This document shows, piece after piece, positions 23,845 through 41,094 of a stretch of DNA of 64,000 nt. A program made the position numbers and the translations under genes. The stretch lies in NCBI RefSeq assembly GCF_000758705.1, contig NZ_CP009287.1, positions 5,208,001 to 5,272,000 of the forward strand. Direction: 5' to 3'. Numbering within the stretch: the stretch's first letter is position 1; each line of letters opens with the position of its first letter. The notes below the pieces were generated by a model. That model saw nothing but the letters and a program-made list of their open reading frames with translations. It was not told the DNA's origin and did no database searches. Source of the stretch: Paenibacillus graminis. Its GTDB lineage: Bacteria; Bacillota; Bacilli; Paenibacillales; Paenibacillaceae.

Positions 23845-23903
23845 ACTGATGTTCCCCCTCTAATATTAGTTAAGTAGCGCAGAATTTGTGTTTCAGATAT
23901 TTA

Positions 23904-23955
23904 TGGTTGCGCTTGCATTTAGAATATACTATTGGCATCCTGGCTTAAACCAGGA
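23904..23955 (-). promoter_or_regulatory. cre-like site and palindrome upstream of the binding-protein gene
   Basis: On the minus strand ATGCAAGCGCAACCA (23904-23918) fits the CcpA consensus WTGNAANCGNWNNCW at every fixed position. Just upstream lies an 18-base inverted repeat TCCTGG-N6-CCAGGA (23938-23955), with TATATT between them as a candidate -10. The layout suggests a regulated promoter with catabolite repression by roadblock. Confidence 0.55.
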
Positions 23956-24021
23956 GATTTAGGATTTTACTAAGGTGTTTTTAGGGTCTCTGAAATCGTT
24001 TACTTTATTCAGTCAAACTGA

Positions 24022-24055
24022 AACAAACCGGAGTATACCGCTACTCCGGTTTGTT
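24022..24055 (-). terminator. Terminator hairpin after the second GH42 gene
   Basis: AACAAACCGGAGTA (24022-24035) pairs perfectly with TACTCCGGTTTGTT (24042-24055) around a 6-base loop. It lies 38 bases beyond the GH42 stop on the minus strand. T-rich sequence follows but no long run, so some read-through into the importer genes is possible. Confidence 0.7.
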
Positions 24056-24092
24056 GAGAAAAATTGTATAATTGCACTAATAATGACTGTGA

Positions 24093-26117
24093 CTAGCTGA
24101 AATCCAAATTCTTAAGAACTTCTACACCATAAGGTTTCAGTACCAGTTCATCCTTAACTACACTATCTGATAAGAAGCTTCGTCCCTCTTCGGTAAGGAT
24201 TACTGTCTGCTCCAAGCCAGTTGTGTTCACATAAATAGCTGAGTCTCCTATCTGGCGGGCTACAACACCGTCCGGAGTAGTAATTCCCTTACGTATACCC
24301 AGATTAAGATAGCAAACCTCAAGCAACGCTTGCAGTATATCTGCTTGTGCAGGAACAGCCAGATAGATCGCTGTTCCCTGTCCGTAAGCATTTGCAGTAA
24401 CAGCTGGTAATTCCTGCTCTAAATCGGTAAATACAGCCCACGTCTCTGCCGTGTTAGGCTCTAGAATCTCATAATAATCAATGGGTGTGTCCATAATTTT
24501 CTCACCCATGCGAACTCGTGGCGATTCACGGCGCAAATTCATCCGCTCCTTCTGAAGCCCTCCTTCGTTCGCTTCGGAAGTATGATAAATCGGACGTTCA
24601 AACGCACCTGCACGGATGCCGAATACATCGCTGAGCCTGCCGGGCATGGTCGAACTGAAAACCTGATTATTTTCATCCACTTTGGCAGAATATGCAGTCA
24701 TAATGACCGTACCGCCCTGTTCTACAAATTGACGAATAGACTGGGCAGAAGCTTCGTCCATAATGCAATGACCGGGAATCAATAGAAGCTTGTAATCCTT
24801 TTCAATATTCCGCAGATTCACTACATTACAGTCTGTGTTGTCAGCCATCAAAGCCTGATAAGTCGTTATAACTTGTTTCAGATAAGGCGTTTTGTAATAC
24901 GCCTTCTGATTCTCGGAGACTTTGAAAGCTTCATAGGAATAGGCAAGTGCAATTTCGGGATTTGGCAGGTATGGTAAGCCCAGATCAGAAAGTTTATCGA
25001 GTTCAGATGTAAACTGCCGGAATTCATCCAGCTTTCTTCCCGGAAGTCCGTCATGATCCAACAAACCGTAAAAGTACTGCTCTTCGCCTCCCAGCATGGA
25101 TCGCCATGTCCAGGCACATACAGCCTCTGCACGGAATAACAAAGCTAGATAGGCATACATTCTTAGCACACCTTTTGGTGGGGCATATGCCCCAAACGAC
25201 CCCGTTTGGAATTCCAGACACCAAATCGGTTTGTTGGTCTCACCAATCCGGTGATTCAGTGAGAAGCAGGTACCGTGAAGAGCATTTCTGTCTTCGGGAT
25301 TGACACCAGGATAAAAGCCAACTCCGGGAATATCAAATAATGTTCCATTAGTCTTCAAATAATCGAATCCATATCCAGGATGCTCACCCCAGTGATTAGT
25401 CGACTCTTTAATCCCTGGAGCATTTTTACGAACTAAGTCCCTTAGTCCCTGTAGATAATCAATCTGTTCATCCGAGAAAAAACGCCACATGTCCAGCATA
25501 CGCTCTGGTGCTCCATTCATTGCACCCGCTACCGGGAACTCTGCATCCTCAAAGCTGTTCAACTTGCGTGACCATCGATGCGCAGCCCAGCAATGATTCA
25601 ACTGTTCAATCGTAAGATATTTATCTCTGAGCCACTGCACATAACGCCGGCGTGCATCCTCTGAGAAGCTTGGTGCCCCACTGCCTATCTCATTGCATAA
25701 ACCTAGAGCATAGAGCGCTGGAGCATTAGCGTAACGTTTGGTTAGCATATCAGCAAACCGATAGGCGTACTCTTGAAAGACGGGATTTCCTACATCATCC
25801 ATATACCGATGGACTGCAGCAAGCCGATGGCCACTGCGATCGGCCAGGTCGATTTCCGGGTATTTCTTATGCAACCAAGTCGGAGCGGGACGGGTGGCAA
25901 TATCAAGTACAACCTTGATTCCTGCTTCCGCAAACAGATCCATTACTTCATCAAACCACTCGAATGTGAAATTCCCTTCCGAAGGCTCAAAGCTGTCCCA
26001 ACACAGATGTCCCAAACGAACGAGATTGAATCCGGATTCCTTCATCAATTGAATATCAACTGGCCAGCGTTCTCGAGGCCAATCATGCGGATGGTAGTTC
26101 GTTCCTACAAAAATCAA
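24093..26117 (-). CDS. GH42 beta-galactosidase (second, divergent type)
   Basis: About 674 residues, no signal peptide. VGTNYHPHDW opens the barrel. The acid/base Glu lies in ALGLCNEIGSG (about residue 143) and the nucleophile Glu in PIWCLEFQTG (about residue 302). A trimerisation-type domain and small C-terminal domain follow. It is only distantly related to the GH42 at 13704 and lacks that protein's cysteine cluster. A TTG start at 26117 is preferred because GAGGTGA lies 5 bases before it; a GTG three codons earlier has no ribosome binding site. It is the first gene of the leftward oligosaccharide operon and has its own cre-like promoter region. Confidence 0.9.
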   Translation of the reverse strand: MIFVGTNYHPHDWPRERWPVDIQLMKESGFNLVRLGHLCWDSFEPSEGNFTFEWFDEVMDLFAEAGIKVVLDIATRPAPTWLHKKYPEIDLADRSGHRLAAVHRYMDDVGNPVFQEYAYRFADMLTKRYANAPALYALGLCNEIGSGAPSFSEDARRRYVQWLRDKYLTIEQLNHCWAAHRWSRKLNSFEDAEFPVAGAMNGAPERMLDMWRFFSDEQIDYLQGLRDLVRKNAPGIKESTNHWGEHPGYGFDYLKTNGTLFDIPGVGFYPGVNPEDRNALHGTCFSLNHRIGETNKPIWCLEFQTGSFGAYAPPKGVLRMYAYLALLFRAEAVCAWTWRSMLGGEEQYFYGLLDHDGLPGRKLDEFRQFTSELDKLSDLGLPYLPNPEIALAYSYEAFKVSENQKAYYKTPYLKQVITTYQALMADNTDCNVVNLRNIEKDYKLLLIPGHCIMDEASAQSIRQFVEQGGTVIMTAYSAKVDENNQVFSSTMPGRLSDVFGIRAGAFERPIYHTSEANEGGLQKERMNLRRESPRVRMGEKIMDTPIDYYEILEPNTAETWAVFTDLEQELPAVTANAYGQGTAIYLAVPAQADILQALLEVCYLNLGIRKGITTPDGVVARQIGDSAIYVNTTGLEQTVILTEEGRSFLSDSVVKDELVLKPYGVEVLKNLDFS

Positions 26118-26142
26118 TTGTTTCACCTCATTTTCGTAATTC

Positions 26143-26370: not shown

Positions 26371-26643
26371 TTACAACCTACGTAGAATTAAACAATCTCT
26401 TCTACATTCCAGCTGTTGGCTACATACAGTCGCAGCGGTTGGGAAACAAGTTGCTTGAATGCTGGGATTTAGTCCATGATGGTTTGCTGCTGCCAGCCTT
26501 TTAACACCATGTGGCCTATCCGCCAGATACAGGCTGCGGATTCCCAGACGGTCGAGGTTTTGAGTCGTCCAGAAATCCTTGCCTGACATTAACAATGCTT
26601 TCTCTTCTAAAGTCATTTGTTTAATTAAAGTTTTATACTTCAT
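26371..26643 (-). pseudogene. GH3 glycosidase, N-terminal fragment
   Basis: The frame begins MKYKTLIKQMTLEEKALLMSG and shows SLYLADRPHGVKR and ATCFPTAATV, the N-terminal signature of standard-order GH3 beta-glucosidases (usually DGPHGVR and CFPTA). A one-base shift after about residue 72 turns the expected ANSWNVEEI into another frame, and even in the right frame a stop follows at 26388. Only about 80 of 700-900 residues remain. Its ATG overlaps the stop of the UDP-galactopyranose mutase gene by four bases, so it was once a translationally coupled last gene of that operon. Confidence 0.75.
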
Positions 26644-27746
26644 CTGAATTCTTCTTTGACTAAGCTTAATGCTGCTGCAATTACTTGATGCATATCGAAA
26701 TATTTATACATACCCAGTCGTCCTCCGAGCATAATATTGGGCAGCTCCTCCGCTAGCCCACGGTACTTTCTATATTTCTCGTTATTACAGTCGTCATTTA
26801 AAGGATAATACGGTTCATCGCCCTTCTTCCAGGCTTTCGGGTATTCTCGAGTAATGATGGTCTTTGGCTGTTCGCCAAATTCAAAATGTTTATGCTCAAT
26901 AATCCGCGTGTATGAAGTTTCTGCGTCGGTATAATTGACCACTGCATTTCCTTGATAGTTTTGCCGGTCCAAAGTAACGGATTCAAATCTTAAACTCCGG
27001 TATTCTAATTCACCATACCTGTAATCAAACAATTGATCAATCATTCCTGTATAAACAATCTTGGGGTATTCTTCTAAGTAAGTCGCTTTATTTACAAAAA
27101 AGTCTTGATTCAGCTCTACGTTAATCAATTCACTAGACAGCATTTTTTCAATGATTTGCGTATAGCCGCCGATAGGAATTCCCTGATACCGGTCATTGAA
27201 ATAATTATTATCATAGGTGAAACGGACAGGGATCCGTTTGAAGATGAAGGCAGGCAGCTCTGCTGCTTTACGCCCCCATTGTTTTTCCGTATAACCCTTT
27301 ACCAGTTTCTCATAGATATCGAGTCCAACTAATGAAATCGCTTGTTCTTCCAGGTTTTGCGGAGATTCAATCTTTGCAGCAGCCCTTTGCCCGGCAATCT
27401 TTCTTAGTGCCTCATCAGGAGTAATCGTCCCCCATAACTGGTTAAACGTATTCATATTAAACGGCAAGTTGTAAATTTCACCTTTATAATTAGCAATGGG
27501 ACTATTGGTGTACCGGTTAAATTCCGCAAATTGATTGATATAGTCCCAAATATCTTTACAATTAGAATGAAAGATATGAGCACCATATTTATGCACCTGT
27601 ATACCTTCTATCTCTTCTGTATAAATATTTCCGCCTATATGTTCTCTTTTATCAATAACCTTTACCCGTTTCCCCCGTTTGGCTGCTTCATAAGCAAAAG
27701 TACTGCCATACAGTCCAGAGCCAACAACCAGATAGTCATACTGCAC
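26640..27746 (-). CDS. glf: UDP-galactopyranose mutase
   Basis: A 368-residue flavoenzyme, the usual length. The FAD loop reads VVGSGLYGSTFAYEAAKRG, followed by IGGNIYTEEIEGIQVHKYGAHIFHS, a UGM hallmark. KGYTEKQWGR, RIPVRFTYDNNYFND and GRLGMYKYFDMHQVI supply substrate-binding Arg and Tyr residues and the C-terminal FAD motif. It converts UDP-galactopyranose to UDP-galactofuranose, the donor for galactofuranose in surface glycans. The start is GTG with AAGGGTG upstream. A strong terminator separates it from the glycosyltransferase gene before it, so it may depend on read-through or a weak promoter of its own. Confidence 0.93.
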   Translation of the reverse strand: MQYDYLVVGSGLYGSTFAYEAAKRGKRVKVIDKREHIGGNIYTEEIEGIQVHKYGAHIFHSNCKDIWDYINQFAEFNRYTNSPIANYKGEIYNLPFNMNTFNQLWGTITPDEALRKIAGQRAAAKIESPQNLEEQAISLVGLDIYEKLVKGYTEKQWGRKAAELPAFIFKRIPVRFTYDNNYFNDRYQGIPIGGYTQIIEKMLSSELINVELNQDFFVNKATYLEEYPKIVYTGMIDQLFDYRYGELEYRSLRFESVTLDRQNYQGNAVVNYTDAETSYTRIIEHKHFEFGEQPKTIITREYPKAWKKGDEPYYPLNDDCNNEKYRKYRGLAEELPNIMLGGRLGMYKYFDMHQVIAAALSLVKEEFR

Positions 27747-27783
27747 TCGTAATCACCCTTTCTTAAATTTATTGCATGCTAAA

Positions 27784-27817
27784 AAAACCTGCGGATAGTA
27801 GACCGCATCCACAGGTT
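27784..27817 (-). terminator. Rho-independent terminator between GT2 and glf
   Basis: On the minus strand AAACCTGTGGAT pairs with ATCCGCAGGTTT (one G-U pair) around a 10-base loop and is followed by a run of seven T. It stands 6 bases after the glycosyltransferase stop. This is one of the clearest terminators in the window. Confidence 0.85.
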
Positions 27818-27822
27818 TAAGA

Positions 27823-28839
27823 TCAGTTAAATCCAACAATCTTCTGTGACACTTTATAGGCCGAAACGGTGATACTGCGGCCCAAGTAACCCGGTATATT
27901 CATTAATCTTCCCATTACACCATACCGAATACTATTGTATAACTGGATATCTTTATCCTTAATATACTTCCACAATTCCTTTTTCTTCTTCAGATCCTCT
28001 TCCTTTCCTGAACGGATTAACAGTATCGTAGAAATGACAGTGATAATTTCAAGATAATTCAGCATATACTTACGAAGTTCGGGACTTGTTATTTGCTCAA
28101 TGTCCACCCCGTCGATCATGAGTTTATTCACTTTAAGCTGTTGATCAATTCTTTCAATCATTACTTTTTCATTGACTGACTGATCCGCCCTCCCGATAAA
28201 ATACCGGTAGAAATCAACATTTATATAGTAGATCCGCTCTACTTTTTCAAGAGGTTTAAATACGAACAGATTATCTACGTAAAAAGTATGTTCGGGAAGT
28301 GTGAATTGGCCTTCTTTCAGCAGGTTCGTCCGGTAGATAATCGAATGCATCAGAATATACTGGCCTTTACGAAAGGAGCTAATTTCATCCCAGGTGAACA
28401 CACGTTCTTCAGGAAAATTTTTGTCATATTTCATCACTTTCCGATGCCGTTTCCCCTGCTTTTCATAGACAAAATTGCTAACCACCATATCCACTGGCTT
28501 CGTTTCCGCAACCAGTTTCTTTAGGCTCATTAGTATTTTCAGATATGCATGTCGGTCCACCCAATCATCGCTATCAACTACCTTCACAAACATCCCGGCA
28601 GCAAGTTTAATCCCCGTATTGACTGCTCCACCATGACCCAGGTTATCTTGATGTATTACTCTAACTATAGATGGATACCTGACCTTATAGTCTTCAGCAA
28701 TAAGTCCGGTATGATCACTGGATCCGTCATTAACAATAATGATTTCAATTTCTTCGTCATTAACTAGCAGGCTGCTAATACAGCGGTCCATATAATCCTG
28801 AGAGTTATAGCAGGGTACAATGAATGACAATAATTTCAT
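27823..28839 (-). CDS. Family 2 glycosyltransferase
   Basis: A 338-residue GT-A fold enzyme. FIVPCYNSQDYMDRCISSLL at the N-terminus binds the nucleotide, IIIVNDGSSDHTG follows, and VDSDDWVD near residue 95 is the DXD metal site. No membrane helices of the GtrB/DPM1 type are visible at the C-terminus, so it is probably a peripheral transferase adding a sugar to a lipid-linked or surface glycan. GAGG precedes the ATG. Position next to GtrA and UGM suggests a role in galactofuranose-containing surface glycan synthesis; donor and acceptor are unknown. Confidence 0.88.
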   Translation of the reverse strand: MKLLSFIVPCYNSQDYMDRCISSLLVNDEEIEIIIVNDGSSDHTGLIAEDYKVRYPSIVRVIHQDNLGHGGAVNTGIKLAAGMFVKVVDSDDWVDRHAYLKILMSLKKLVAETKPVDMVVSNFVYEKQGKRHRKVMKYDKNFPEERVFTWDEISSFRKGQYILMHSIIYRTNLLKEGQFTLPEHTFYVDNLFVFKPLEKVERIYYINVDFYRYFIGRADQSVNEKVMIERIDQQLKVNKLMIDGVDIEQITSPELRKYMLNYLEIITVISTILLIRSGKEEDLKKKKELWKYIKDKDIQLYNSIRYGVMGRLMNIPGYLGRSITVSAYKVSQKIVGFN

Positions 28840-28865
28840 TATTACTAACCTCTTTTTATTCTTTT

Positions 28866-29462
28866 TTAGGCCACCTTTTGCTGTTTATCTTCTTTGAAAA
28901 TAATTTTCAGTATCGGGAAGTATACCCAGAACGAAATAACCGCATTAATAATCATCGTAACCAGGTCTGCCGCAATTTCACCGGTTCCTTCAAATTTATC
29001 AATAAAGAATTGGTAGATAGGATCCTTATACCATCCCTGGAGAGCCCCTGCACAAATGGTTATCAAGATGTACGCTATAACGTACCAAATAGCTGCTTTG
29101 TAAATATTTCCGGTTGAACGGAAGGTTATATTACGTTGAGCAAAGAAATTAATTACCTGTGCGATCCCCAGAGTCAGTTGAACGGCAATAAAGTAGGCAA
29201 GTCCCCCGCCTCCGCCAGAGGCTATAGAGCCTGATGGATAGTTAAAAATGTAATACGGTGATCCATCAGAATTATGACCGATCGGTAGAATTTGAAAATC
29301 ATGAGCCTCCAAAGCAGATCCGCTAAATATCGCCTTCAAAACCGGCATAAGAATCATCTGAAATACGGTAATTCCGTTACTCAATATTAGAAACATAATA
29401 AACTGTGCAATTTGGGGATGTTTAACACTATAATTATTCCAAAACGACTTAACTCCACTCAC
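28866..29462 (-). CDS. GtrA-family membrane protein
   Basis: About 198 residues with four membrane helices (about 20-45, 90-110, 125-145 and 170-190). The family sequence AQVINFFAQRNITFRS before the third helix is clear. The helix 1-2 region is enlarged by an extracellular insert with SIASGGGGG. GtrA proteins are thought to flip polyprenyl-phosphate-linked sugars or to take part in surface polysaccharide glycosylation. A GTG at 29462 with AAGGAA upstream is taken as start. It overlaps the end of the GH2 gene, so the two are coupled. It is a good partner for the GT2 and UGM genes that follow. Confidence 0.83.
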   Translation of the reverse strand: MSGVKSFWNNYSVKHPQIAQFIMFLILSNGITVFQMILMPVLKAIFSGSALEAHDFQILPIGHNSDGSPYYIFNYPSGSIASGGGGGLAYFIAVQLTLGIAQVINFFAQRNITFRSTGNIYKAAIWYVIAYILITICAGALQGWYKDPIYQFFIDKFEGTGEIAADLVTMIINAVISFWVYFPILKIIFKEDKQQKVA

Positions 29463-31848
29463 TGCTGCCACTTCCTTCTATTTTTACACTAAAGAGCAAT
29501 TGGACCGATTCAGTCTGATTAGATGTAATGGTGAGTTTCCCCTCACCCGTTACCCCCGTTGTTTTAACATAAGTACCACACATTCCACCTTCTGTAGCGA
29601 CACAGTCCGGACCTACAATTTCTATAGCACCCTCTGCTTTTAAGAAAATGGGCAGATGAGCGTACGTTGCGTTATTATTATTCGCATCTGCTACTCGAAT
29701 ACGAACTGAGGCGACATCATAAGTATCTGCTTCAGTAAGGCTGGTACCGCTGACTGTAGTTTCCAGGTGAAGGGCCGCGCTAGAAGCTTTAGTGACCTCA
29801 GCTACAACCTGCCCATTTTTGATAGCCTCAAAGCGATAGACCGGTGCAGATACACCCCAATTTTCAATATATTTGAAGAATAATTTGTAAAAGGTTACCG
29901 GCGATACAAGATGCCGCAGCATTACCCACATCGCTTTAAAAATGTATTTTGGCGGTAATGCGGTACCAAACCGTTGGATTGCTAACAAACATTCTTTGAT
30001 GGCTTCAGCTTTCTTGTGGGAATACTTTTCTCCCTCTTCAATTACATTTCCGACAGTGTCGTAGAATTCAATAGGCGAATGTGGTAAATAACGGTATTTT
30101 TTGTTGAACGGCATAAACTCCCGAATCATCCGTTCATTTTTGTACAGGCGTACTGAATCTGCATTAGTGAAGATATAGTTTTCACCAACAGCACCTCCGG
30201 GGTAATCGCCAATATGCATATCTGAACCGACTTCCAGAACCGACGTTTCTTCCGAGAAACTCGCGTAAACTTTTGTGGCAAGTTTATGATTGCGGTACAT
30301 GTCCATGATGCCGTGGTAACAAATACGGTCTCCGGATCCAAAATCGCCATGCGTTTGATAGTCGAACATACACCAGCCAAAAGCGCCTGCAATATCTTCC
30401 CTTTTATAAACTTCATTCAATACATTGGCATGACGCATAGCGTGTGACAGGCGATGGGTAGGCGTATCCGTTGCTTTGGTTGGAAACATGTGACCATTAA
30501 ATTCGGCAATCAAATAAGCTTTATTCTTATTAGGTGAAATCAGCCACCTTGGCAGTAAGCCGCCATTTTTTCCTGTATGAGAGAAATCGTTGAATGCATA
30601 TACATCTTCTAATAAACTGCTTCTCCATAAGAAGCGAACCCCGCTTGTTTGTCTGCTATGATCCAGACGGCGGGCAATTTCATTGGTCTTGGAGTACAAG
30701 ACATCATCATCTTGTGACTCGTTAACACGAACACCCCAGAGAATAATCGAAGGATGGTTACGGTACTGCAAGATCATTTCTTCCACATTATCACAGACAA
30801 TTTGTTTCCATTCTTCATCGTTTTTGATATGCTGCCAGCCTGGTGTCTCTGTGAATACAAGCAATCCCATACGGTCGCACGCATTCAGAAAATGCTTGGA
30901 CTGAGGATAATGGGAGGTGCGAACCGCATTAACATGCAGTTCTTCTTTCAGTATTCTTACATCCTCAATCTGCATGGATGCAGGCATAGCATACCCTACA
31001 TAAGGATAGCTTTGATGGCGGTTTACTCCGCGAATTTTATATTTCTTGCCGTTTAAGTAAAAACCGTCACTGCGAAACACAGCTTGGCGGAATCCAAAAG
31101 TTACATTGTACTCGTCCACAAGCTCCTCATCAGGGCCCTTTATTATAGCTGCTAATGTGTATAGATAAGGAGTTTCTGGACTCCATGCATGACTATTTGA
31201 TACAGCAATGCTGCAATCCGTGATTGCTGCTCCTGATACCTTTAAGCTTTTTTGGCCAACAACATTTTTCTGCTCATCCAGTAGAAATAATTCCAGCGTG
31301 TGGTTTGTATCAGGCTGGCTGATCGTAACATCAACAAGCGCTTGATTCATGTCTGGTGTCCGAACAAACACATCTGCCACGTAGCTCTGTTCTGCTATTA
31401 GCAACCATGCTTCGCGATAAAGTCCACCGTAAGTCATATAATCAATTACATGGCCAAACGGCGGTACATTTGCATCTTCCCGTGTGTTTAAGCGAACAAC
31501 AATTCTGTTTTCGGCTCCGTACACCAGTTTATCAGTTACCTCTGCCCTGAATGCCGTATACCCGCCGTTATGAGTCATAAGCTTCTCACCATTGACAAAC
31601 ACTTCTGCAACGTGAGCAGCACCATCAAACTGCAGGAACATTCGCCTGCCTTTCAAGTTCTCAGGAACGTCAAGATAACGTCTATAACCGCATATCATTT
31701 GACAGGAGCTTTCTTCCATATAGTGCACAGGTATTTCTTTACAAGTGTGGGGCAGCCTTACGGCTGTCCCCTCTCCTGTAAAGTTGAAAAATTCATCAGT
31801 AAAATTCTCTATAAAACTCCATCCGTCACAGATACTAATTTTTCTCAT
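29449..31848 (-). CDS. GH2 glycosidase (beta-galactosidase/beta-glucuronidase type)
   Basis: 799 residues without signal peptide. A jelly-roll sugar-binding domain (about 1-155), an immunoglobulin-like domain (155-255) and a TIM barrel (260-560) appear in the standard order. RGVNRHQSYPYVGYA opens the barrel, Glu377 in WGVRVNESQ is the acid/base and Glu449 in YLIAEFNGHMFP the nucleophile. Extra beta domains follow. It is probably an exo-beta-glycosidase acting in the cytoplasm, while the GH3 upstream acts outside. GGAG lies 9 bases before the ATG. Substrate is not certain: beta-galactoside, beta-glucuronide or beta-mannoside are all possible. Confidence 0.88.
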   Translation of the reverse strand: MRKISICDGWSFIENFTDEFFNFTGEGTAVRLPHTCKEIPVHYMEESSCQMICGYRRYLDVPENLKGRRMFLQFDGAAHVAEVFVNGEKLMTHNGGYTAFRAEVTDKLVYGAENRIVVRLNTREDANVPPFGHVIDYMTYGGLYREAWLLIAEQSYVADVFVRTPDMNQALVDVTISQPDTNHTLELFLLDEQKNVVGQKSLKVSGAAITDCSIAVSNSHAWSPETPYLYTLAAIIKGPDEELVDEYNVTFGFRQAVFRSDGFYLNGKKYKIRGVNRHQSYPYVGYAMPASMQIEDVRILKEELHVNAVRTSHYPQSKHFLNACDRMGLLVFTETPGWQHIKNDEEWKQIVCDNVEEMILQYRNHPSIILWGVRVNESQDDDVLYSKTNEIARRLDHSRQTSGVRFLWRSSLLEDVYAFNDFSHTGKNGGLLPRWLISPNKNKAYLIAEFNGHMFPTKATDTPTHRLSHAMRHANVLNEVYKREDIAGAFGWCMFDYQTHGDFGSGDRICYHGIMDMYRNHKLATKVYASFSEETSVLEVGSDMHIGDYPGGAVGENYIFTNADSVRLYKNERMIREFMPFNKKYRYLPHSPIEFYDTVGNVIEEGEKYSHKKAEAIKECLLAIQRFGTALPPKYIFKAMWVMLRHLVSPVTFYKLFFKYIENWGVSAPVYRFEAIKNGQVVAEVTKASSAALHLETTVSGTSLTEADTYDVASVRIRVADANNNNATYAHLPIFLKAEGAIEIVGPDCVATEGGMCGTYVKTTGVTGEGKLTITSNQTESVQLLFSVKIEGSGSSEWS

Positions 31849-31867
31849 TTACTTTTTCTCCATATTT

Positions 31868-32290
31868 TCATTTTGAAGTATTAACGGTATAGATTAATCC
31901 TTCTGACTTGGATTGATTCATAAAGCAAGAGATCAGTGAAGCAACGCTTCCAACGGCAAAGGCAATCCCAAAAATAATGACAGCTTGAGGATTTCCCCCA
32001 ATGAAGTTGACCCCATTCACGACATCTGACAAGGTTGGGAATCCCAAATATAGATGCATCGACAGCCCCACACCAAAACAAATTGATGATAGCAACGGTG
32101 CGAAATAGTAATTTTTGATTAGAACCAACAATTCTGCCGCAAAGCCAGCGATAATTAGACCAAAGGTTACAATGGAAAAGGTCCGGTCTCCATAATCAAA
32201 AATAATAAACGCGATGTCCGCTGCAAGCATCAAGCAGGCTGCCATAAAGCCGATCCAAAAACCAAACGTTCTGTCTTTAAATAAGACCAT
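31868..32290 (-). CDS. Small four-helix membrane protein of unknown function
   Basis: 140 residues with four hydrophobic segments at about 11-32, 38-60, 64-85 and 100-122, short loops and a polar C-terminus. No family could be named. GGGAGG stands 7 bases before the ATG, and its start overlaps the GH3 stop by 14 bases, so it is translated together with the membrane-anchored GH3. It may be an accessory membrane partner for that enzyme or for the GtrA-type export step. This is inference from position only. Confidence 0.7.
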   Translation of the reverse strand: MVLFKDRTFGFWIGFMAACLMLAADIAFIIFDYGDRTFSIVTFGLIIAGFAAELLVLIKNYYFAPLLSSICFGVGLSMHLYLGFPTLSDVVNGVNFIGGNPQAVIIFGIAFAVGSVASLISCFMNQSKSEGLIYTVNTSK

Positions 32291-35234
32291 TCTTTTTCCC
32301 TCCCTTTGCGTTTCTTCTAAGGCTGGTTCGGATGAAGAAGAACAAGCTTAACAGTAACAACGCGCCTAGCGTATAATTAATAACTTTTAGCAGTGTTTGC
32401 CACCAAGGTGTAAATCCTTTAACTTCTGTTTCATCTGTCAGGCCGTTAAGAAGACTGGATTTGGCCAGTGAGTAATAGAAATGTTTATTGGCTCGTCTTA
32501 ACTCTTGCAGAACATATCCGTCTTTCTTACTTGCAAGATATTTATGGATTTCACTGGCACGGTCGGTATCCGCATTAAACGTGTCTGTTCCGGCAACAAG
32601 CGACTCGACCGTTGGAATATTCGGATTGCCCTTGACAGAATCTGTAATTGTTACCCCTTTAAAGCCCCATTCATTTCTGAGGACCTGCTTTAGCGTTGCA
32701 GAATCGGCATAGGCCAGGCGGGCACCAATCCGGGAGAAAGACATCATTGTTCCAAGTGCTCCCCCTTCTGTAAACGCACCCTCAAAAGCTTTCAACGGTC
32801 CTTGGCGGTATGCCTGCTCCGTCATAAATGTAGCCAGTTCTGATCTGTTCGTTTCCTGATCATTGGATACGAAATGTTTAATGGCCGCTGTTAACCCCTT
32901 GGCCTGCATCGCCTTTGTCTGATTAGCTCCCATCAGGTAGGACATAATACTGTCTTCGGAATAGTATTCAAAGTTACGTCCGCTGAATGGAGTCCGGTGC
33001 ATATTAGCACCTGGTGACCACAGTTGTGTGGTACCACTAAACAGACAATCCTCTGCAATGAAATTACCGCGTTCTGCGATTAATTTCTGGTTCCATGTGG
33101 AGGCTGCCACGATTTGGCTGACATGAGCCGTTGCTGGCTGATTACCGCCATACAAATAACTGGATTGTGAACCTGAAGGGCCATCTGTATTTTTGTTGGC
33201 CGGTTTATTAATCGATTTGACAGCAGGTTGACCGAAGTTCTCACCAATTGTTGTGCTTAATTCACTGATTGTTAACTGATCAAGGAATTTATTCCAGGTC
33301 TCATCATCTTCAAAAGGAACGTCTTTCATATCGAGCAGCTTAAGGGTGACCTCAGCACCTTGAGTAAAGCTGTCGTACGCAGGTGCATCTGCCGGTTTTT
33401 CATATTTCTGATCGTACATCACTGCTTTCAGTTCATCTGTTGCTGTGAGATCAATATAAGGCTTAGGATAAGTGTTCCAGTCATTGCGTGTTAAATAAGT
33501 AACAGGGGCCCCTGCATAGTAGTTAAGATCCATATCATCGAACTGATTGGAAACAACTTCGTCCGTATACTCAGACTTGGCATAAGTAACATTATCCAGT
33601 GACTCCAGTGGAACAGAGATTACTTTATCCGGAGCACCCTCTATACTGGTTCCATCAGCAGAAATTAGTTTCCCTTCTACTTTAGCGCCTTCTTTTTTTG
33701 CCAGGATATTATTTAAGGCATCATGACTGTCATTTCCAATGGCAAAATAATAATTACCTGGATCAAAAACGTAACTGCCCTTCTTGCTTGTCTCCGCTCC
33801 ATTGACAGCGTTAGCGTCATAAGTTGCGAACAAATACTCATCAATAGTAACTTTTACTTCTTCCGATTCGCCTGCGCTGAGTTCGCCCGTTTTTCCGAAG
33901 CCAATCAATTGAATCGCTGATTTCTCGGCTTGCCCTTCTTCATACGGGAGTTGGGCATATACTTGTACTACTGACTTTGACTTGCCAGTATAGGCTGACT
34001 CTGCCGGATATCCTTCATTGGTCACCTTCACGGTTGCAGTAACTGTTTTTGCTTGTCTATCCCAATTCACAGCTGTTAACTCCTGGGAGAAATTAGCGTA
34101 AGAACTCCCGTATCCAAACGAATACACCATTTCATCTGCATAGTTCCAGCTGTCTTTATTAACGAAAGCCCCGGCATTGCTGTCTGCATTATGAAGCCCT
34201 AAGACAGCATCCTGATATCTGGTTTCATAATATTTATATCCCTGATAGATCCCTTCTGCTTCAACAACATAGTGACCATCGTCATTCGCATATTGGAAAT
34301 CACCTGCGTTTCTGACTGCTGGTGCAGACAGTGAATCTGCAGCAAAGGTGTCTACCAGCCTGCCTGAAGGATCCGCTGCCCCTATTATTACATTGACAAC
34401 ACCTTCGAATCCTTTCAAACCGGGATTACCGATCCAGAGAGCGGCATCGACCCCATATTCCTCTTCTTCAAGCCAACCAAGCTCCATGGCATAAGCACTG
34501 TTTATTAGAACAATAGTCTTCGAGAATTTGCCGCTATCTTTAATCATCTTTAATAAATCTTTCTCTGAATCGTGAAGGGCAAGATAAGAAATCCCATCCC
34601 GGTCAGAGGTCGCCAAGTCTTTGCCCTCCCCACCATCACGGGATAACATTACAATAGCCGCATCATTGAAATTATCCTGGTATGTGGCCTGCAAATCGGC
34701 AGTATAAAAGCTTTTTCCAACTTCTCCAATAAACCAATCCGGCGCAGCCTTCACTCTGGCAACTTCGCTATTTTTATAGGCATCAAATAACTTTTCATTG
34801 ATTTTGAATCCAGCCTCCGCAAGTGCACTATGCAGACTGACCTGACGTTTCTCATCCATTCCCGGACCGCCGGAATTTCCGCTGTACACAGGGTCGGCTG
34901 TTGATCGGCCAAACAATGTCACACTGCGTTCTCCGGAGCTCAATGGCAGAACCGCCTGATCGTTCTTTAATAGAACCATACCTTCTTCCATCGTTTGAAC
35001 ATCATGTTTATCAGAATCTACTAACATTGCCTTTAAGCCTTCATCAGATAACCCATAATCGCTCTTATAGTGCATAGTACTGGCATCCGCTTCAATTACA
35101 GGTGCCGTGACATTTAAAAAGACGTTAACTTGACCGCTCCAACTTATGAGCAGTTGCGTCATAAGAATACTAAATGTTAGAAAGATCGCCGTAACAGCTG
35201 TAAGCCCACGCCAGATATTTGATTTTCTACTCAA
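32277..35234 (-). CDS. Membrane-anchored GH3 beta-glycosidase with swapped domain order
   Basis: 985 residues. An N-terminal membrane helix (about 11-32) and a C-terminal helix (about 950-975) followed by a Lys/Arg-rich tail place the body outside the cell. The (alpha/beta) sandwich domain with EEGMVLLKND comes first (from about residue 80), then a fibronectin-like part, and the barrel domain comes last, with LWSPGANMHRTPFSGRNFEY, KHFVSNDQE and Asp865 in VTITDSVKG as nucleophile. Standard GH3 proteins have the reverse order; a few such as Ruminococcus albus and Butyrivibrio beta-glucosidases share this one. TTG start with GGAGG. Probable role: trimming an extracellular glycan, possibly the glycan made by the neighbours. 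Confidence 0.88.
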   Translation of the reverse strand: MSRKSNIWRGLTAVTAIFLTFSILMTQLLISWSGQVNVFLNVTAPVIEADASTMHYKSDYGLSDEGLKAMLVDSDKHDVQTMEEGMVLLKNDQAVLPLSSGERSVTLFGRSTADPVYSGNSGGPGMDEKRQVSLHSALAEAGFKINEKLFDAYKNSEVARVKAAPDWFIGEVGKSFYTADLQATYQDNFNDAAIVMLSRDGGEGKDLATSDRDGISYLALHDSEKDLLKMIKDSGKFSKTIVLINSAYAMELGWLEEEEYGVDAALWIGNPGLKGFEGVVNVIIGAADPSGRLVDTFAADSLSAPAVRNAGDFQYANDDGHYVVEAEGIYQGYKYYETRYQDAVLGLHNADSNAGAFVNKDSWNYADEMVYSFGYGSSYANFSQELTAVNWDRQAKTVTATVKVTNEGYPAESAYTGKSKSVVQVYAQLPYEEGQAEKSAIQLIGFGKTGELSAGESEEVKVTIDEYLFATYDANAVNGAETSKKGSYVFDPGNYYFAIGNDSHDALNNILAKKEGAKVEGKLISADGTSIEGAPDKVISVPLESLDNVTYAKSEYTDEVVSNQFDDMDLNYYAGAPVTYLTRNDWNTYPKPYIDLTATDELKAVMYDQKYEKPADAPAYDSFTQGAEVTLKLLDMKDVPFEDDETWNKFLDQLTISELSTTIGENFGQPAVKSINKPANKNTDGPSGSQSSYLYGGNQPATAHVSQIVAASTWNQKLIAERGNFIAEDCLFSGTTQLWSPGANMHRTPFSGRNFEYYSEDSIMSYLMGANQTKAMQAKGLTAAIKHFVSNDQETNRSELATFMTEQAYRQGPLKAFEGAFTEGGALGTMMSFSRIGARLAYADSATLKQVLRNEWGFKGVTITDSVKGNPNIPTVESLVAGTDTFNADTDRASEIHKYLASKKDGYVLQELRRANKHFYYSLAKSSLLNGLTDETEVKGFTPWWQTLLKVINYTLGALLLLSLFFFIRTSLRRNAKGGKKNGLI

Positions 35235-35267
35235 TGATGTTACCTCCTCGCTCAGGTGCCCGTTAGC

Positions 35268-35891
35268 TTATTTTGATGCAGCAGCTTCACCGGTCAACTC
35301 GACGTAGTCGAAGCTGGCTTTTGCAGCGTCAACAATAATAGATGTTTCCGGGAAAGCAACGGAATTTAGATACTCCTCAACAGATAATGCTGGCCCTTCA
35401 CCGCCAACTGCCTTGCCCATCTCATCGGTCCATTCTTTCGTGTTTACGTAACCAATCGGATTCGCACCTGCCGAGTATGAACTATTCATAATGACTGCTG
35501 TGGGTTTTGATAATTTAAGTGTAATCAGGCCCTCTTCATCAACTTCAGTCAGGGTTCCGTAGTACTTAGTAATGTTCGCCCCTCTGGGAACAACATCATA
35601 CTTACCGTTGTCATTAAACTCCAAGGCTCCAGAAAAAAAGGTATCGGTCTTTGTTAAAATATAAGTATTGTCTGCAAATGTCTCAATATTTTGTACGCCG
35701 AAAGTAGCCTGTTTAAATGTATGCTCTGGATAAGCACTCATAAATGCAACATTTGATGTGGAAGCATAGTACCCTGTCATCTTACTCGACCCCGCTGCCT
35801 TCTCTCCTCCCGACCCACATGCTGTTAAACCAATCAGCAACACCATGGCACAAATTACTACAAATGATTTCTTTACTGTTTTTCTTTTCAT
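35268..35891 (-). CDS. Lipoprotein of unknown function
   Basis: 207 residues. A basic N-terminus, hydrophobic core and lipobox LTAC place the lipidated Cys at residue 25. The mature part shows no recognised domain; it contains many short beta-like segments (YILTKTDTFFSGALEFND, LITLKLSKP) consistent with a small beta-rich fold. AAAGGGG lies 7 bases before the ATG. It is the first gene of the leftward glycan block and is transcribed away from the LytTR/GHKL sensor pair. A role in binding or presenting the extracellular glycan, or in signalling to the sensor kinase, is conjecture. Confidence 0.8.
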   Translation of the reverse strand: MKRKTVKKSFVVICAMVLLIGLTACGSGGEKAAGSSKMTGYYASTSNVAFMSAYPEHTFKQATFGVQNIETFADNTYILTKTDTFFSGALEFNDNGKYDVVPRGANITKYYGTLTEVDEEGLITLKLSKPTAVIMNSSYSAGANPIGYVNTKEWTDEMGKAVGGEGPALSVEEYLNSVAFPETSIIVDAAKASFDYVELTGEAAASK

Positions 35892-35917
35892 GATTATTCC
35901 CCTTTGATTGAGTATTT

Positions 35918-35931
35918 TGAATGCGCTTTCT
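35918..35931 (-). promoter_or_regulatory. cre-like site in the leader of the lipoprotein gene
   Basis: AGAAAGCGCATTCA on the minus strand resembles the CcpA box TGAAAGCGCTTTCA with two mismatches. It lies between a candidate TACAAT -10 element (35945-35950) and the lipoprotein start, where CcpA would block elongation. The -35 region of this promoter is poor, as expected when an activator is needed. Confidence 0.4.
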
Positions 35932-36018
35932 AATAAGCAGATTCATTGTACGATATGGTCTTTATTCTGTGTGCTTCTCGGCATAATCTCAAAAAAATTC
36001 AGGATAATCCAAAAGGGG

Positions 36019-36051
36019 TTTTTAGTTTAAGCGGTTATTTTTTAGTCTATG
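36019..36051. promoter_or_regulatory. Direct repeats, candidate LytTR-regulator binding site
   Basis: TTTTTAGTTTAAG starts at 36019 and TTTTTAGTCTATG at 36039, 11 of 13 bases identical and 20 bases apart. LytTR-domain regulators bind pairs of roughly 9-base direct repeats about two helical turns apart. The site lies between the lipoprotein gene and the LytTR gene and could serve both. Confidence 0.4.
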
Positions 36052-36070
36052 ATGAGTTGGAGGTACCTTA

Positions 36071-36099
36071 TTGACAAACGGGAAAGCGCTTCATATAGT
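36071..36099 (+). promoter_or_regulatory. Promoter of the LytTR/GHKL pair with embedded cre-like site
   Basis: TTGACA (36071-36076) and TATAGT (36094-36099) are 17 bases apart, a strong sigma-A promoter. The spacer contains GGGAAAGCGCTTCA (36080-36093), close to the CcpA consensus, so glucose should repress the sensor system by blocking RNA polymerase. Confidence 0.65.
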
Positions 36100-36133
36100 G
36101 AACATTGACCTAACATAAACGGAGAGGTGAACA

Positions 36134-36844
36134 ATGATAACAATTGCCATTGTGGAAGATGATATGAATCAAGCCCGTTTATTAGAGAGTCATCTGACAA
36201 GCTATGGTGCAGAGATAGGACTTTCTTTCAACATTGTGCATTTTCCGCAAGCTGTCGCCCTACTGGAGAATTACACAGCAAATTTTGATATTATCTTTAT
36301 GGATATTCAATTGCCTTATATGAATGGTATGGATGCTGCCCGCAGTATTAGAGCCCTCGATAAAAGTGTTATCCTGATCTTCATAACAAATCTTACCCAG
36401 TACGCTATTCATGGTTATGAAGTAGAAGCGCTCGATTATATATTAAAGCCTGTTGAATACTTTGATTTTGCTCTGAAAATGTCCCGTGCCATTCGAAGAA
36501 TTAGCGAAGAAACACGAAATAACATCCTCATTGCTGCTGACAATGGCATCCGTAAAGTATCGCCTAAAAGTATCCGTTATGTGGAGACTGAAGGGCATCA
36601 CGTCATTTATCACACGGCAGATGGTGAATTCCGGCAGTATGCCACGATCTCATCCATCGAAAAAAAACTGCAGTCCTATGATTTTTTTAGATGTAATAAT
36701 TGTTATCTAGTCAATCTTGCGTATGTACAAAGAATTCAGGGATATACAGTTATATTGGATGGTGTCGATTTGAAAATCAGTCAACCCCGGAAAAAGGCTT
36801 TTGTGGAAAAATTAATGGAGTATGTAAAAAGGAAAAACCTATGA
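36134..36844 (+). CDS. LytTR-type response regulator
   Basis: 236 residues. The receiver domain has the acidic pair Asp9-Asp10 in IVEDD, phospho-acceptor Asp57 in IFMDIQLPY and Lys in YILKPVEYFDF. The LytTR DNA-binding domain occupies about 137-236, with VSPKSIRYVETEGHHVIYHT and FFRCNNCYLVNLAYVQ as its signature. GGAGAGG lies 7 bases before the ATG. It pairs with the GHKL kinase that overlaps its stop. AgrA/VirR-like proteins of this type often control surface or extracellular functions. Being divergent from the lipoprotein/GH3/glf block, it is the probable regulator of that block. Confidence 0.92.
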   Translation: MITIAIVEDDMNQARLLESHLTSYGAEIGLSFNIVHFPQAVALLENYTANFDIIFMDIQLPYMNGMDAARSIRALDKSVILIFITNLTQYAIHGYEVEALDYILKPVEYFDFALKMSRAIRRISEETRNNILIAADNGIRKVSPKSIRYVETEGHHVIYHTADGEFRQYATISSIEKKLQSYDFFRCNNCYLVNLAYVQRIQGYTVILDGVDLKISQPRKKAFVEKLMEYVKRKNL

Positions 36845-38172
36845 GCGGAATAATGCATGAACTTTTAGGAGGCTACTACAAGCAGTTTATCATTCGCTCC
36901 GCCAGTATGATTGAATTTGTATTTTGTGTGTTTCTTCTGATACGGCCCTTCCATAAAAGAAGTGGCTTTGGCAGGAAATTAGGCATGCTTACTCCGTTAG
37001 CACTTCCGCTTGTTCTTATAATGTCGGTAATTAATACGCGGTATCCCCAGCTGTATTCCGGAATGACAAATATTCTGATGTATTTATTTATTTTGGCAGC
37101 CTTATACTTGCTATTCCAGGAAACCTTCTCTGAGCTGTTGCTGTGTCTTTGTGGCGCCGTAGCCATTCAGGTGGTTGTAGGGCGACTATACGAAATTTTA
37201 ATTATAGCTTTAGATAAAAATCCATATGAAACTCTTTCACTATTTAAGGAAATGGTTCCATTGCGGGATTGGGCACTTTACTATTTAATTCATTTTATGC
37301 TTTGTTTCTTACTTGCCCTTCTTTTCCGCCGAACTAGAGTGTATGAACATGACAGAGCTAGCAAGAGATTAATCTTTATATTCTCATTCTTATTTATTTT
37401 TGTAACTGTGATCCTTACCTCTGTCAGCCGCTCCTTTGAGGGCGAGAACAACATCCTGGATTTCATCATCCGAACTTTTGCAATTCTGTATGCATTACTT
37501 ACTTTATTGCTGCGTACAAGAATACTCGAGACAAGCAAGCTAAAACAGGATTTGTTAATCATGGATGAATTGCTGTATGCAGAGAAAAAGCAGTTTGACA
37601 ACATGCGGAGTGAAATTGACATTATCAACATGAAAGCTCATGACCTTCGTCAGCAACTGGCAAATATCAGCTACAAGCTAACCCATCAAGAAGTTGATTC
37701 TTTGAAGGCTGCTATTGAGGTTTACGATACGACAATAAAAACGGGAAGCGATATTCTGGATGTGATCCTTTATAAGAAACAGCTTTACTGTGAGAAAAAT
37801 CAGATTCGTATGAGCTGCATGGCCGATGGTCAGTGTTTATCCTTCATCTCAACTACTCATTTATATTCTCTGTTAAGCAACGCGATAGAAAACTCTTTGG
37901 AGGCTGTACAAATGGTCAGTAACGATAGAAAACGAATCATTTCAATTTCTATCGGTAGAGAGAACGGCGTTATTGGAATTCATGTCACAAACTATTTTGA
38001 GAGCGATTTCACTATTAGTGACCATGTGCCGCAAACCGTTAAGAAGGATAAGAATCGCCATGGGTTTGGCATAAAAAGCATGCGACATATTGCAGAACAG
38101 TATAACGGGACATTATCATTTCACGCAGAGGAAGATATCTTTTATCTGCATATCTATTTTCCGATTTCTTGA
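36841..38172 (+). CDS. GHKL-type sensor histidine kinase (AgrC/VirS-like)
   Basis: 443 residues. About six membrane helices occupy residues 12-225 with only short external loops, suggesting that the sensed signal is a membrane-embedded or small molecule. The dimerisation segment carries the phospho-acceptor His in MKAHDLRQQL. The ATPase domain has LLSNAIENSLEA (N box) and HGFGIKSMRHIAEQYNG (G box), a GHKL/HATPase_c_5 pattern without other boxes. Its ATG at 36841 overlaps the TGA of the response regulator; a longer frame reaching back to 36700 is within that gene and is not used. The pair ends at the strong terminator at 38187-38224. Confidence 0.9.
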   Translation: MSGIMHELLGGYYKQFIIRSASMIEFVFCVFLLIRPFHKRSGFGRKLGMLTPLALPLVLIMSVINTRYPQLYSGMTNILMYLFILAALYLLFQETFSELLLCLCGAVAIQVVVGRLYEILIIALDKNPYETLSLFKEMVPLRDWALYYLIHFMLCFLLALLFRRTRVYEHDRASKRLIFIFSFLFIFVTVILTSVSRSFEGENNILDFIIRTFAILYALLTLLLRTRILETSKLKQDLLIMDELLYAEKKQFDNMRSEIDIINMKAHDLRQQLANISYKLTHQEVDSLKAAIEVYDTTIKTGSDILDVILYKKQLYCEKNQIRMSCMADGQCLSFISTTHLYSLLSNAIENSLEAVQMVSNDRKRIISISIGRENGVIGIHVTNYFESDFTISDHVPQTVKKDKNRHGFGIKSMRHIAEQYNGTLSFHAEEDIFYLHIYFPIS

Positions 38173-39516: not shown

Positions 39517-39529
39517 GAGGAATTACAAT

Positions 39530-40999: not shown

Positions 41000-41017
41000 T
41001 TAGCAGCTTGTTCTGTT

Positions 41018-41047
41018 AAAAAAGCACGCCAATGGCGTGCTTTTTTT
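41018..41047 (+). terminator. Rho-independent terminator after the phosphorylase gene
   Basis: AAAAAGCACGCC and GGCGTGCTTTTT form a 12-bp stem with the loop AAT and run straight into seven T. It is a textbook terminator 18 bases after the stop. Confidence 0.92.
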
Positions 41048-41060
41048 GCCGAAACAGGAA

Positions 41061-41094
41061 GCAGCCAAGACGCAATGAAATTGCGCTTGGCTGC
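41061..41094 (-). terminator. Second hairpin between convergent genes
   Basis: GCAGCCAAG pairs with CTTGGCTGC, and inside it CGCAAT pairs with ATTGCG around GAA, leaving one bulged A. On the minus strand it lies 18 bases after the GH36-like gene, with T-rich sequence behind. It is probably the terminator of that leftward operon. Confidence 0.65.

Follow-up and report, generated by a model that had tools for sequence, protein, structure and literature searches.

A putatively regulated Paenibacillus graminis gene cluster pairing a membrane-associated GH3 with a UDP-galactopyranose mutase

Gene content of the block

The window analyzed here is a 64,000-nucleotide stretch of Paenibacillus graminis contig NZ_CP009287.1. 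Within it we confirmed the nine genes that the first-pass annotation had described, seven running leftward and a divergent LytTR/GHKL pair, with family calls made by profile (Table 1). That annotation had further joined the genes from GH3 to GtrA by overlapping starts. GH3 and 4TM do overlap by 14 bases and GH2 and GtrA by 23, but 4TM and GH2 are separated by a gap of 19 bases. It had also ended the block at the UDP-galactopyranose mutase (UGM), which follows GT2 after 76 bases, whereas what is left of a soluble GH3 gene, 90 codons, continues past UGM and overlaps its stop by 4 bases; in relatives L033 and L072, the soluble GH3 is full length at this place. The start of the histidine kinase is most likely the ATG at 36841, which overlaps the RR stop, rather than the longest start in the open reading frame list (36700). 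Against L033, the seven leftward genes have dN values of 0.05 to 0.13 and dS values of 0.53 to 1.57 and are therefore under purifying selection.

Table 1. Features of the block, in window coordinates
Feature	Position	Strand	Basis or description
GHKL histidine kinase (HK), 443 aa	36841..38172	+	about seven hydrophobic segments, then HATPase_c_5; PF14501 80.5 bits
LytTR response regulator (RR) with receiver domain	36134..36844	+	PF04397 66.8 bits, PF00072 59.6 bits
Likely RR-HK promoter, TTGACA-17-TATAGT	36071..36099	+	11/12 consensus matches
Predicted LytTR operator, direct repeat TTTAGTTTA-N11-TTTAGTCTA	36021..36049	+	repeat conservation
Lipoprotein (LIPO), 207 aa, mostly beta strands	35268..35891	-	lipobox-like Cys25
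GH3TM, permuted GH3 (sandwich, Fn3, barrel), TTG start	32277..35234	-	PF01915, PF14310, PF00933
4TM, four-helix membrane protein, 140 aa	31868..32290	-	AlphaFold2 model
GH2 without export segment	29449..31848	-	PF02836 100.3 bits
GtrA-like membrane protein	28866..29471	-	PF04138 22.0 bits (below cut-off), four hydrophobic segments
GT2 glycosyltransferase without membrane segments	27823..28839	-	PF00535 99.7 bits
UDP-galactopyranose mutase (UGM, glf)	26640..27746	-	TIGR00031 440.8 bits
Soluble GH3 gene remnant, 90 codons	26371..26643	-	NF041610 45.6 bits

UGM scores above the curated TIGR00031 equivalog cut-off of 303.75 bits and, as the sole PF03275 match at an E value of ≤1e-20, is the only UGM found in this genome. 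The GtrA call stood in part: the hydrophobic segments agree with it, but the PF04138 score falls below the gathering cut-off of 26.1 bits (E = 1.9e-4), and the protein is therefore called no more than GtrA-like here. GT2 has no hydropathy segment above threshold in a crude test, and neither GH2 nor the soluble GH3 has an export segment. The closest solved relative of GH2 is a beta-D-galactosidase (5euv/5ldr; 449 bits), and a GH2 specific for galactofuranose (Galf) is described from Streptomyces in the available part of one paper (PMC4560423). Among the block genes scanned there was no GT-C transferase (8 to 13 membrane helices), no polymer exporter, and no ABC, GPH, or MFS transporter; the ABC permease gene at 21224-22153 is not part of the block.

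The membrane-associated GH3, its partners, and the divergent promoter

The Pfam domains of GH3TM lie in permuted order (PF01915, residues 86-379; PF14310, 422-503; PF00933, 706-897), the sandwich-Fn3-barrel order of GlyA1 (PDB 5k6l-5k6o), BrGH3A, and P. barengoltzii 5wug, and its sequence matches 5k6l and 5wug. The conserved catalytic Glu/Asp and the GRNFEYYSED motif are likewise common to GH3TM and this subfamily. It differs from them in its 4TM partner and in having a hydrophobic segment at both ends, as read from hydropathy; neither of two papers on permuted GH3s (PMC5104943, PMC11233000) uses "transmembrane" in its main text, as available. Residues E203, D865, K786, H787, and R753 are invariant in all 35 GH3 rows compared (hand-picked from the loci fetched, leaving out an array gene truncated where L074 ends), and by homology E203 and D865 would be the catalytic Glu and Asp, both intact. 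The best NCBIfam match is the arabinopyranosidase model NF041610, at 191.6 bits where the cut-off is 1300. We predict that GH3TM is an exo-glycosidase at the outer membrane face, a topology taken from hydropathy alone.

Two of its neighbors represent conserved membrane-associated families without annotation. 4TM belongs to no Pfam family and is modeled by AlphaFold2 as four helices (pLDDT 84.4); in L073 it is fused with GH3 in one protein. LIPO has no Pfam family above cut-off, and its lipobox-like Cys25 is present in 18 of 20 aligned relatives; the fold of its AlphaFold2 model (pLDDT 74.8) weakly resembles VtrC/ToxS.

Upstream of RR, 21 bases before TTGACA, lies the predicted operator, two 9-bp direct repeats whose spacing falls within the 11 to 13 bp published for LytTR operators (PMC6193735, as available). 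The repeat occurs in 10 of the 12 divergent promoters tested. In nine other loci it has a spacing of 11 with 2 to 3 mismatches in 18 positions; among spacings from 8 to 15 none did as well as 11, and 0 to 2 of 500 shuffles were as good. It was not found in divergent loci L074 and L044. Both promoter hexamer blocks are largely conserved across the aligned loci; RR-HK promoter-type sites are not in excess in the region (41 sites, where shuffles average 35.2). The predicted operator is the sole site in the genome with at most one mismatch; a control pattern also gives one. The predicted LytTR switch of the cluster has a single good target. The LytTR Regulatory Systems HdrRM and BrsRM similarly have 9-bp direct repeats upstream of the regulator promoter, although usually 10 bases from the -35 element rather than 21, according to the available text (PMC6193735). 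Those systems pair a LytTR protein with a membrane inhibitor and lack a two-component pair, whereas here RR has a receiver domain and a GHKL kinase is present.

Conservation in Paenibacillaceae and Clostridia

The order RR-HK/LIPO-GH3-4TM-GH2-GtrA-GT2 is kept in all eight Paenibacillaceae loci, two of which (L035 and L036) are nearly identical. Since most flanks change while gene order is kept, we conclude that the block is more than a chance arrangement. Conservation as a unit in relatives was one of the tests on which the first-pass annotation had staked its proposal of a single system, and its outcome did not refute the proposal. UGM is whole in six of the eight loci; in L032 two frames share it, and it was not found in the stretch fetched for L034.

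Outside the family, the proposal of seven families acting as one system finds no support in that form. In Clostridia there is a smaller core consisting of RR/HK, the membrane GH3, and 4TM, with the lipoprotein in 7 of 14 loci. GH3TM adjoins the 4TM match in all 14 loci, every one of which was found through the 4TM search, and 12 of them have RR, HK, or both in the cluster. GH2 is present in 5 of the 14 and GtrA in 2 (L037 and L076). GT2 and UGM were found in none of the 14, two of which (L073 and L042) lie on contigs that stop within the cluster or directly behind it; module 1, as we call the RR/HK switch, the lipoprotein, and GH3 with 4TM, therefore needs no Galf arm. Neighbors were labeled by BLASTP against window proteins (E value 1e-4) within the stretches fetched, so divergent genes score as absent. 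In a GH3 tree, midpoint-rooted for drawing, the window GH3 falls in a 25-row clade (support 100/100), and the GH3s of the Paenibacillaceae block group with rows from Clostridia. Module 1 is shown to be a conserved unit, and the gene set is a core with accessories and not one fixed set.

A second cluster type has the composition GH3-GtrA-GT2-UGM, without the kinase pair, lipoprotein, 4TM, or GH2, and its GH3s fall outside the 25-row clade. Across 100 genus genomes, GT2, GtrA, and UGM are tied to these clusters. This GT2 occurs in six of them, and all seven of its places (E ≤1e-40) lie inside GH3TM clusters. UGM is present in all six GT2-bearing genomes, solely in the cluster, compared with 7 of the 94 other genomes (Fisher P = 1.4e-6, with no correction for relatedness). 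At least one block family lies within 1.5 kb of the cluster UGM in 7/7 places; no block family was found within 1.5 kb on either side of the nine UGM places elsewhere. Three of 11 GtrA places accompany a permuted GH3 without membrane segments. Among the clusters, GT2 and UGM were found only in those of Paenibacillales. Among 398 phylum genomes the 4TM model matches only that of the window itself, which is also one of the 4 matching genomes among 100 of the genus. In the Anaerobium family it matches 5 of 397 genomes, counting Anaerobium, two of these weakly (E = 2.2e-5 and 9.7e-4); the true spread may be wider than these survey counts.

Related systems and possible roles

Parts of the block have counterparts in published systems, compared here as the available portions of the papers present them. 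The CsbB/GtlA, GtcA, and YfhO/GtlB systems of multicomponent transmembrane glycosylation also place a GtrA-type protein beside a GT2 (PMC8035078), but the block differs in its GT2 without membrane segments, in having no GT-C, and in its additional UGM and two glycosidases. A membrane-linked GT-A is typical of such systems, and no segment of this kind was detected in our GT2 by the crude hydropathy test; such systems may also use a soluble GT-A together with a distinct membrane protein (PMC8035078). In Klebsiella, the O1/O2 rfb locus carrying glf and gmlABC joins UGM to a gtrABC-like modification set with a Galf product (PMC7556023); it is, however, a Gram-negative O-antigen locus with an ABC exporter, and no glycosidase or LytTR switch is described in that text. 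Gram-positive PULs (PMC5320581) contain a regulator alongside GH2 and GH3; in one locus it is RR[LytTR] with HK. They have a transport system per locus, whereas no oligosaccharide transporter was found among the block genes scanned, and "GtrA" and "UDP-galactopyranose mutase" are absent from the available text. In Actinoplanes missouriensis (PMC13390465), gsf encodes a GtrA-type flippase and GT2 enzymes, with a transmembrane transferase said not to be GT-C. The synthesis cluster wps-1 of the same species contains a GH26, and the first-pass premise that glycan-synthesis operons lack glycosidases is thus not strict. The available text lacks "udp-galactopyranose" and describes no GH3/4TM or LytTR pair.

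No such cluster was described among the literature matches listed (titles and starts of abstracts, with few subscription papers covered), and no paper in literature of that coverage mentioned as many as three of the four terms GtrA, UDP-galactopyranose mutase, glycoside hydrolase, and LytTR. Two papers, one of them that on the Klebsiella locus, do bring together UGM, GtrA, and galactofuranose. The pairing of membrane-bound sugar-cutting enzymes with Galf-making genes looks undescribed. It brings glycan cutting and galactofuranose making, usually found at separate loci, together in a compact, genetically testable unit.

We tentatively favor, with somewhat less than even confidence, a module for trimming surface glycans to which a galactofuranose-building arm was added, the two modules forming one regulated cluster for remodeling the cell's own glycan. 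The kinase would sense a membrane-near signal, and RR would bind the direct repeat and switch on the cluster, including the leftward operon. GH3, held at the outer membrane face by both its ends and by 4TM, would trim a terminal beta-linked sugar off a membrane-proximal glycan. In Paenibacillales clusters, module 2 (UGM, GT2, and the GtrA-like protein) would make UDP-galactofuranose, transfer Galf onto an acceptor at the cytoplasmic face, and carry it to the outside, and this Galf arm may rebuild or cap the trimmed glycan. Returned fragments would be cleaved by the cytoplasmic GH2 and, in relatives, also by the soluble GH3. The recurrence of GtrA, GT2, and UGM in the second cluster type, with distant GH3s, argues for a two-module cluster. 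Against it stand the missing or broken UGM in two of eight Paenibacillaceae loci, the lack of a GT-C or polymer exporter in the block, the loci without the repeat, the GtrA places with a nonmembrane GH3, and catabolic-looking neighbors. Should remodeling of the cell's own envelope be correct, the cluster would offer a handle on on-demand surface-glycan editing by Gram-positive bacteria.

Nearly equally likely is the scavenging of foreign glycans, in which the surface GH3 and cytoplasmic GH2/GH3 would degrade an external plant or host glycoside under the two-component switch. The substrate might partition into membranes (a galactolipid or saponin), with GtrA helping to import the product and GT2 and UGM in a side role. 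Catabolic-looking neighbors favor this use in several loci, as judged by Pfam on 40 chosen neighbors and accessory proteins of other loci rather than on every neighbor. An MFS_2 sugar transporter adjoins GH2 in L077 and L078, where no GtrA was found; L077 also has GH43, a rhamnosidase-type hydrolase, and an esterase, L045 a rhamnosidase-type neighbor, L037 an FGGY kinase and LacI, and L076 LacI, while GH78 and GH106 lie beside the block in L072 and L035. The window block itself is flanked by sugar-use genes, with GH42, GH43, and ABC-transport genes on one side and PfkB and raffinose-synthase-type genes on the other. GH2 and the soluble GH3 have no export segment, and permuted GH3s have been linked to plant-feeding gut habitats (PMC5104943, as available). 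However, no ABC, GPH, or MFS transporter lies inside the block, and all seven GT2 places found in the 100 genus genomes lie in these clusters, in genomes without another UGM. We know of no catabolic step for UGM and GT2. If scavenging is correct, the cluster would represent a surface-anchored glycosidase system common to Paenibacillaceae and gut Clostridia.

It is unlikely that two unrelated sets, a clostridial-type GH3/4TM switch operon and a Paenibacillus GT2-UGM set, are merely coexpressed neighbors working apart. The grouping of the Paenibacillaceae GH3 with Clostridia rows, the finding of GT2 and UGM in none of the 14 loci outside the family, and the gap between GT2 and UGM would suit such an arrangement, but GH3TM accompanies GtrA-GT2-UGM in two cluster types with distant GH3s, and GtrA already stands beside module 1 in L037 and L076. 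Quite improbable is a sugar exchange, in which the doubly anchored GH3 with 4TM would swap an outer-face beta-linked sugar on a lipid- or wall-linked glycan for Galf that UGM-GT2-GtrA would supply in lipid-linked form, controlled by a dedicated switch that responds to a membrane signal; it would be the first known case of a GH-fold enzyme replacing a GT-C transferase in such a pathway. We know of no GH3 with a polyprenyl-phosphate donor, GT2 has no membrane segments, and module 1 occurs without GT2 in 14/14 loci outside the family (with two contigs ending early). On the other side, transfer is in principle open to retaining GH3s in addition to hydrolysis. The block combines a GtrA-like protein, GT2, and a predicted outer-face membrane enzyme with no GT-C, and comparable multicomponent systems have been described (PMC8035078, as available).

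Conservation of the block in Paenibacillaceae

The window derives from a single 7.17-Mb contig, and the nearest named relatives of its proteins belong to Paenibacillus and Fontibacillus. The first-pass annotation had treated the leftward genes and the divergent kinase pair as one set possibly serving a galactofuranose (Galf)-containing surface glycan and proposed conservation as a unit in relatives as a test. Its observation of the gene set was right, and the unity of the block is supported: response regulator (RR), histidine kinase (HK), lipoprotein (LIPO), membrane GH3 (labeled GH3TM here), four-helix protein (4TM), GH2, GtrA-like protein, and GT2 are found in the same order in all eight Paenibacillaceae loci, comprising the window, five loci from a species-genome scan with a 4TM alignment, and two from genus genomes (genome G115 and locus L033 are one contig). 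UDP-galactopyranose mutase (UGM) is whole in six of the eight. UGM matches in Fontibacillus panacisegetis (L032, ~13637-14733) are split over two reading frames, and the gene may be broken or the assembly in error; UGM was not found in the fetched L034 stretch. Two loci, L035 and L036, are near-identical, including their flanks.

Ten flank proteins were scanned, both sides together, and both flanks carry sugar-use genes: GH43, an AraC-type two-component pair, an ABC permease, and GH42 on the left, and PfkB, alpha-amylase-type, raffinose-synthase-type, and solute-binding proteins on the right. In the other seven Paenibacillaceae loci, the PfkB, GH13-type, and raffinose-synthase-type neighbors were undetected within the 2.3 to 5.3 kb fetched past the kinase, and GH42 was present at high identity in L033 only; L035 and L036 gave 24% matches. 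The G+C content of the block is slightly lower (0.421, and 0.385 for the kinase pair) than that of the flanks (0.445 and 0.457). A full-length soluble GH3 gene occupies the place of the window's remnant in L033 and L072. Between the window and L033 (14552-15658), UGM has a dS of 0.53, far below the 1.07 to 1.57 of the other six genes, a difference that recombination at the block's 3' end may explain.

Features of the block and its surroundings (window positions)
Feature	Position	Strand or remark
LIPO -> GH3 -> 140-aa 4TM -> GH2 -> GtrA-like -> GT2 -> UGM	leftward from 35891	-
LytTR response regulator -> GHKL kinase	rightward from 36134	+
LIPO lipoprotein (207 aa)	35268-35891	-
UGM	26640-27746	-
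Soluble-GH3 gene remnant, 90 codons	26371-26643	overlaps UGM end/stop
Repeat in divergent promoter	36021-36049	
Left flank	16080-26126	
Right flank	38560-46592	

Membrane GH3 and a smaller core outside the family

The Pfam domains of GH3TM are permuted (sandwich, 86-379; Fn3, 422-503; barrel, 706-897), an order shared with GlyA1 (PMC5104943) and BrGH3A (PMC11233000). A search of solved structures ranked 2x40 first, followed by the permuted 5k6l and 5wug. Since a hydrophobic segment lies near either end, both termini are predicted to be inside and the enzyme outside. With residue roles assigned by homology, catalytic Glu203 and Asp865 as well as Lys786, His787, and Arg753 are invariant across the 35 GH3 rows compared; the putative sugar-binding Asp684 varies in 5 of the 35.

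Outside the family, 4TM searches recovered 14 loci (9 from the species-genome scan and 5 from a second search), and GH3TM adjoins the 4TM match in every one, the match being weak in L077 and L078 and fused in L073. RR and/or HK lie inside the cluster in 12 of the 14; L074 has an RR piece at its edge only, and neither was seen in the L075 and L077 clusters. Recognizable LIPO (7/14), GH2 (5/14), and GtrA (2/14) are less frequent, and GT2 and UGM were found in none, an absence that is uninformative in L073 and L042, which end within or just past the cluster. Thus, the composition holds as a conserved unit in Paenibacillaceae, but the single set is better redrawn as a core with accessories. L073 and L040 lie on one contig of a Lachnospiraceae MAG; here a single 1106-aa reading frame encodes both GH3TM and 4TM, a fusion that points to joint action of the two proteins. 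By BLASTP, the L074 stretch (G842:C100) contains five GH3TM-type genes in an array, two of them followed by 4TM; the last gene is truncated where the stretch ends.

In a GH3 tree, with midpoint rooting used for display, all eight Paenibacillaceae rows group as a single clade (100/100). Together with Anaerobium and the fused protein they make up a 10-row group (100/100), in which the Anaerobium-alone branch is weak (85/72), and this group is nested in a 25-row clade (100/100) whose remainder is Clostridia. We infer that the Paenibacillaceae GH3 was acquired by transfer from Clostridia.

A predicted LytTR operator

The divergent promoter spans 242 bases and contains the repeat TTTAGTTTA-N11-TTTAGTCTA, with a likely TTGACA-17-TATAGT promoter facing RR that starts 21 bases downstream. 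The repeat recurs in nine other loci, Anaerobium and L073 included, with 2 to 3 mismatches of 18; in all ten, a spacing of 11 outperforms all alternatives between 8 and 15, and 0 to 2 of 500 dinucleotide shuffles match it. The comparison, also made by alignment, covered loci with a divergent RR. No repeat was found in L074 or L044, both with divergent RR, and the genome has no second site with ≤1 mismatch. Published LytTR repeats are 9 bp long and usually 12, at times 11 or 13, bp apart (PMC6193735), and AgrA sites are centered near -60 (PMC4227749). Relative to the RR promoter, the center of the near repeat falls at about -61 if the start is assumed to lie 7 bases past the -10 element. The repeat is farther from the LIPO start than from the RR promoter; it is plausible that the predicted operator also controls the leftward operon. 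The fold of the LIPO model weakly resembles those of VtrC and ToxS, two co-sensors of bile salts, as might be expected if LIPO binds a ligand and acts with the switch.

Galf genes and the possible role of the block

A second cluster type combines a GH3TM (33 to 36% identity to the window's) with soluble GH3, GtrA-like protein, GT2, and UGM in G007, in G016, in G078 (a genome from another family of the order), and at an additional site in G115 (loci L079, L080, L081, and L111). An adjacent kinase pair, LIPO, 4TM, and GH2 were undetected there; L080 has a single weak partial RR match ~5 kb away. Contig G115:C2 carries both types (~88400-102400 and 119600-132000; L033 and L111), their GT2 genes ~32 kb apart. 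In G059, G008, and G120, GtrA-like protein and soluble GH3 accompany a permuted GH3 without membrane segments.

Among 100 genus genomes, the window's own included, this GT2 (E ≤1e-40) occurs in 6, at seven places, all GH3TM clusters. GtrA-like genes (E ≤1e-15) occupy 11 places in 9 genomes, 8 in GH3TM clusters (one, in G016, is ~10 kb distant within the same cluster) and 3 with the nonmembrane permuted GH3. UGM (E ≤1e-20) occupies 16 places in 13 genomes: all six GT2-bearing genomes have it, only inside these clusters, versus 7 of the 94 others (Fisher P = 1.4e-6, uncorrected for relatedness). Within the 1.5 kb fetched on each side, each of the seven cluster UGM places has at least one block family and the nine elsewhere have none. 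Since the window genome's only UGM lies in the block, any UDP-Galf there should derive from it, provided that PF03275 detects all mutases.

The block shares GtrA and GT2 with transmembrane glycosylation systems (PMC8035078), but hydropathy shows no membrane segment in its GT2, and its genes include no GT-C; it shares glycoside hydrolases with Gram-positive PULs (PMC5320581), one with a LytTR-HK, but those list transporters. Actinoplanes (PMC13390465) offers precedents in a synthesis cluster holding a glycosidase and a GtrA cluster with a non-GT-C transmembrane transferase, so every oddity of the block is partly precedented. The combination itself was not seen among the matches listed in the literature searches.

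One hypothesis for the overall function is remodeling, in which building and trimming would act on one and the same glycan. In its favor, two cluster types whose GH3s are distant from each other both combine a predicted outer-face exo-glycosidase with the sole UGM, the accompanying GT2, and a flippase-like protein. Alternatively, surface and cytoplasmic glycosidases may degrade an external glycoside. Scavenging of this kind is favored by the sugar-use genes flanking the block and, among the chosen neighbors scanned, by MFS_2 transporters in L077 and L078 and by GH43, rhamnosidase-type, GH78, GH106, esterase, FGGY kinase, and LacI regulator genes; other scanned neighbors are neutral, e.g., an M18 peptidase in L043 and an AAA protein in L039. 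Remodeling and scavenging both remain, close to each other, and we tentatively favor a trimming module that had a catabolic origin and gained a Galf arm. GH2 resembles beta-D-galactosidase (5euv); since a Galf-specific GH2 is already known (PMC4560423), a role in removing Galf is possible.
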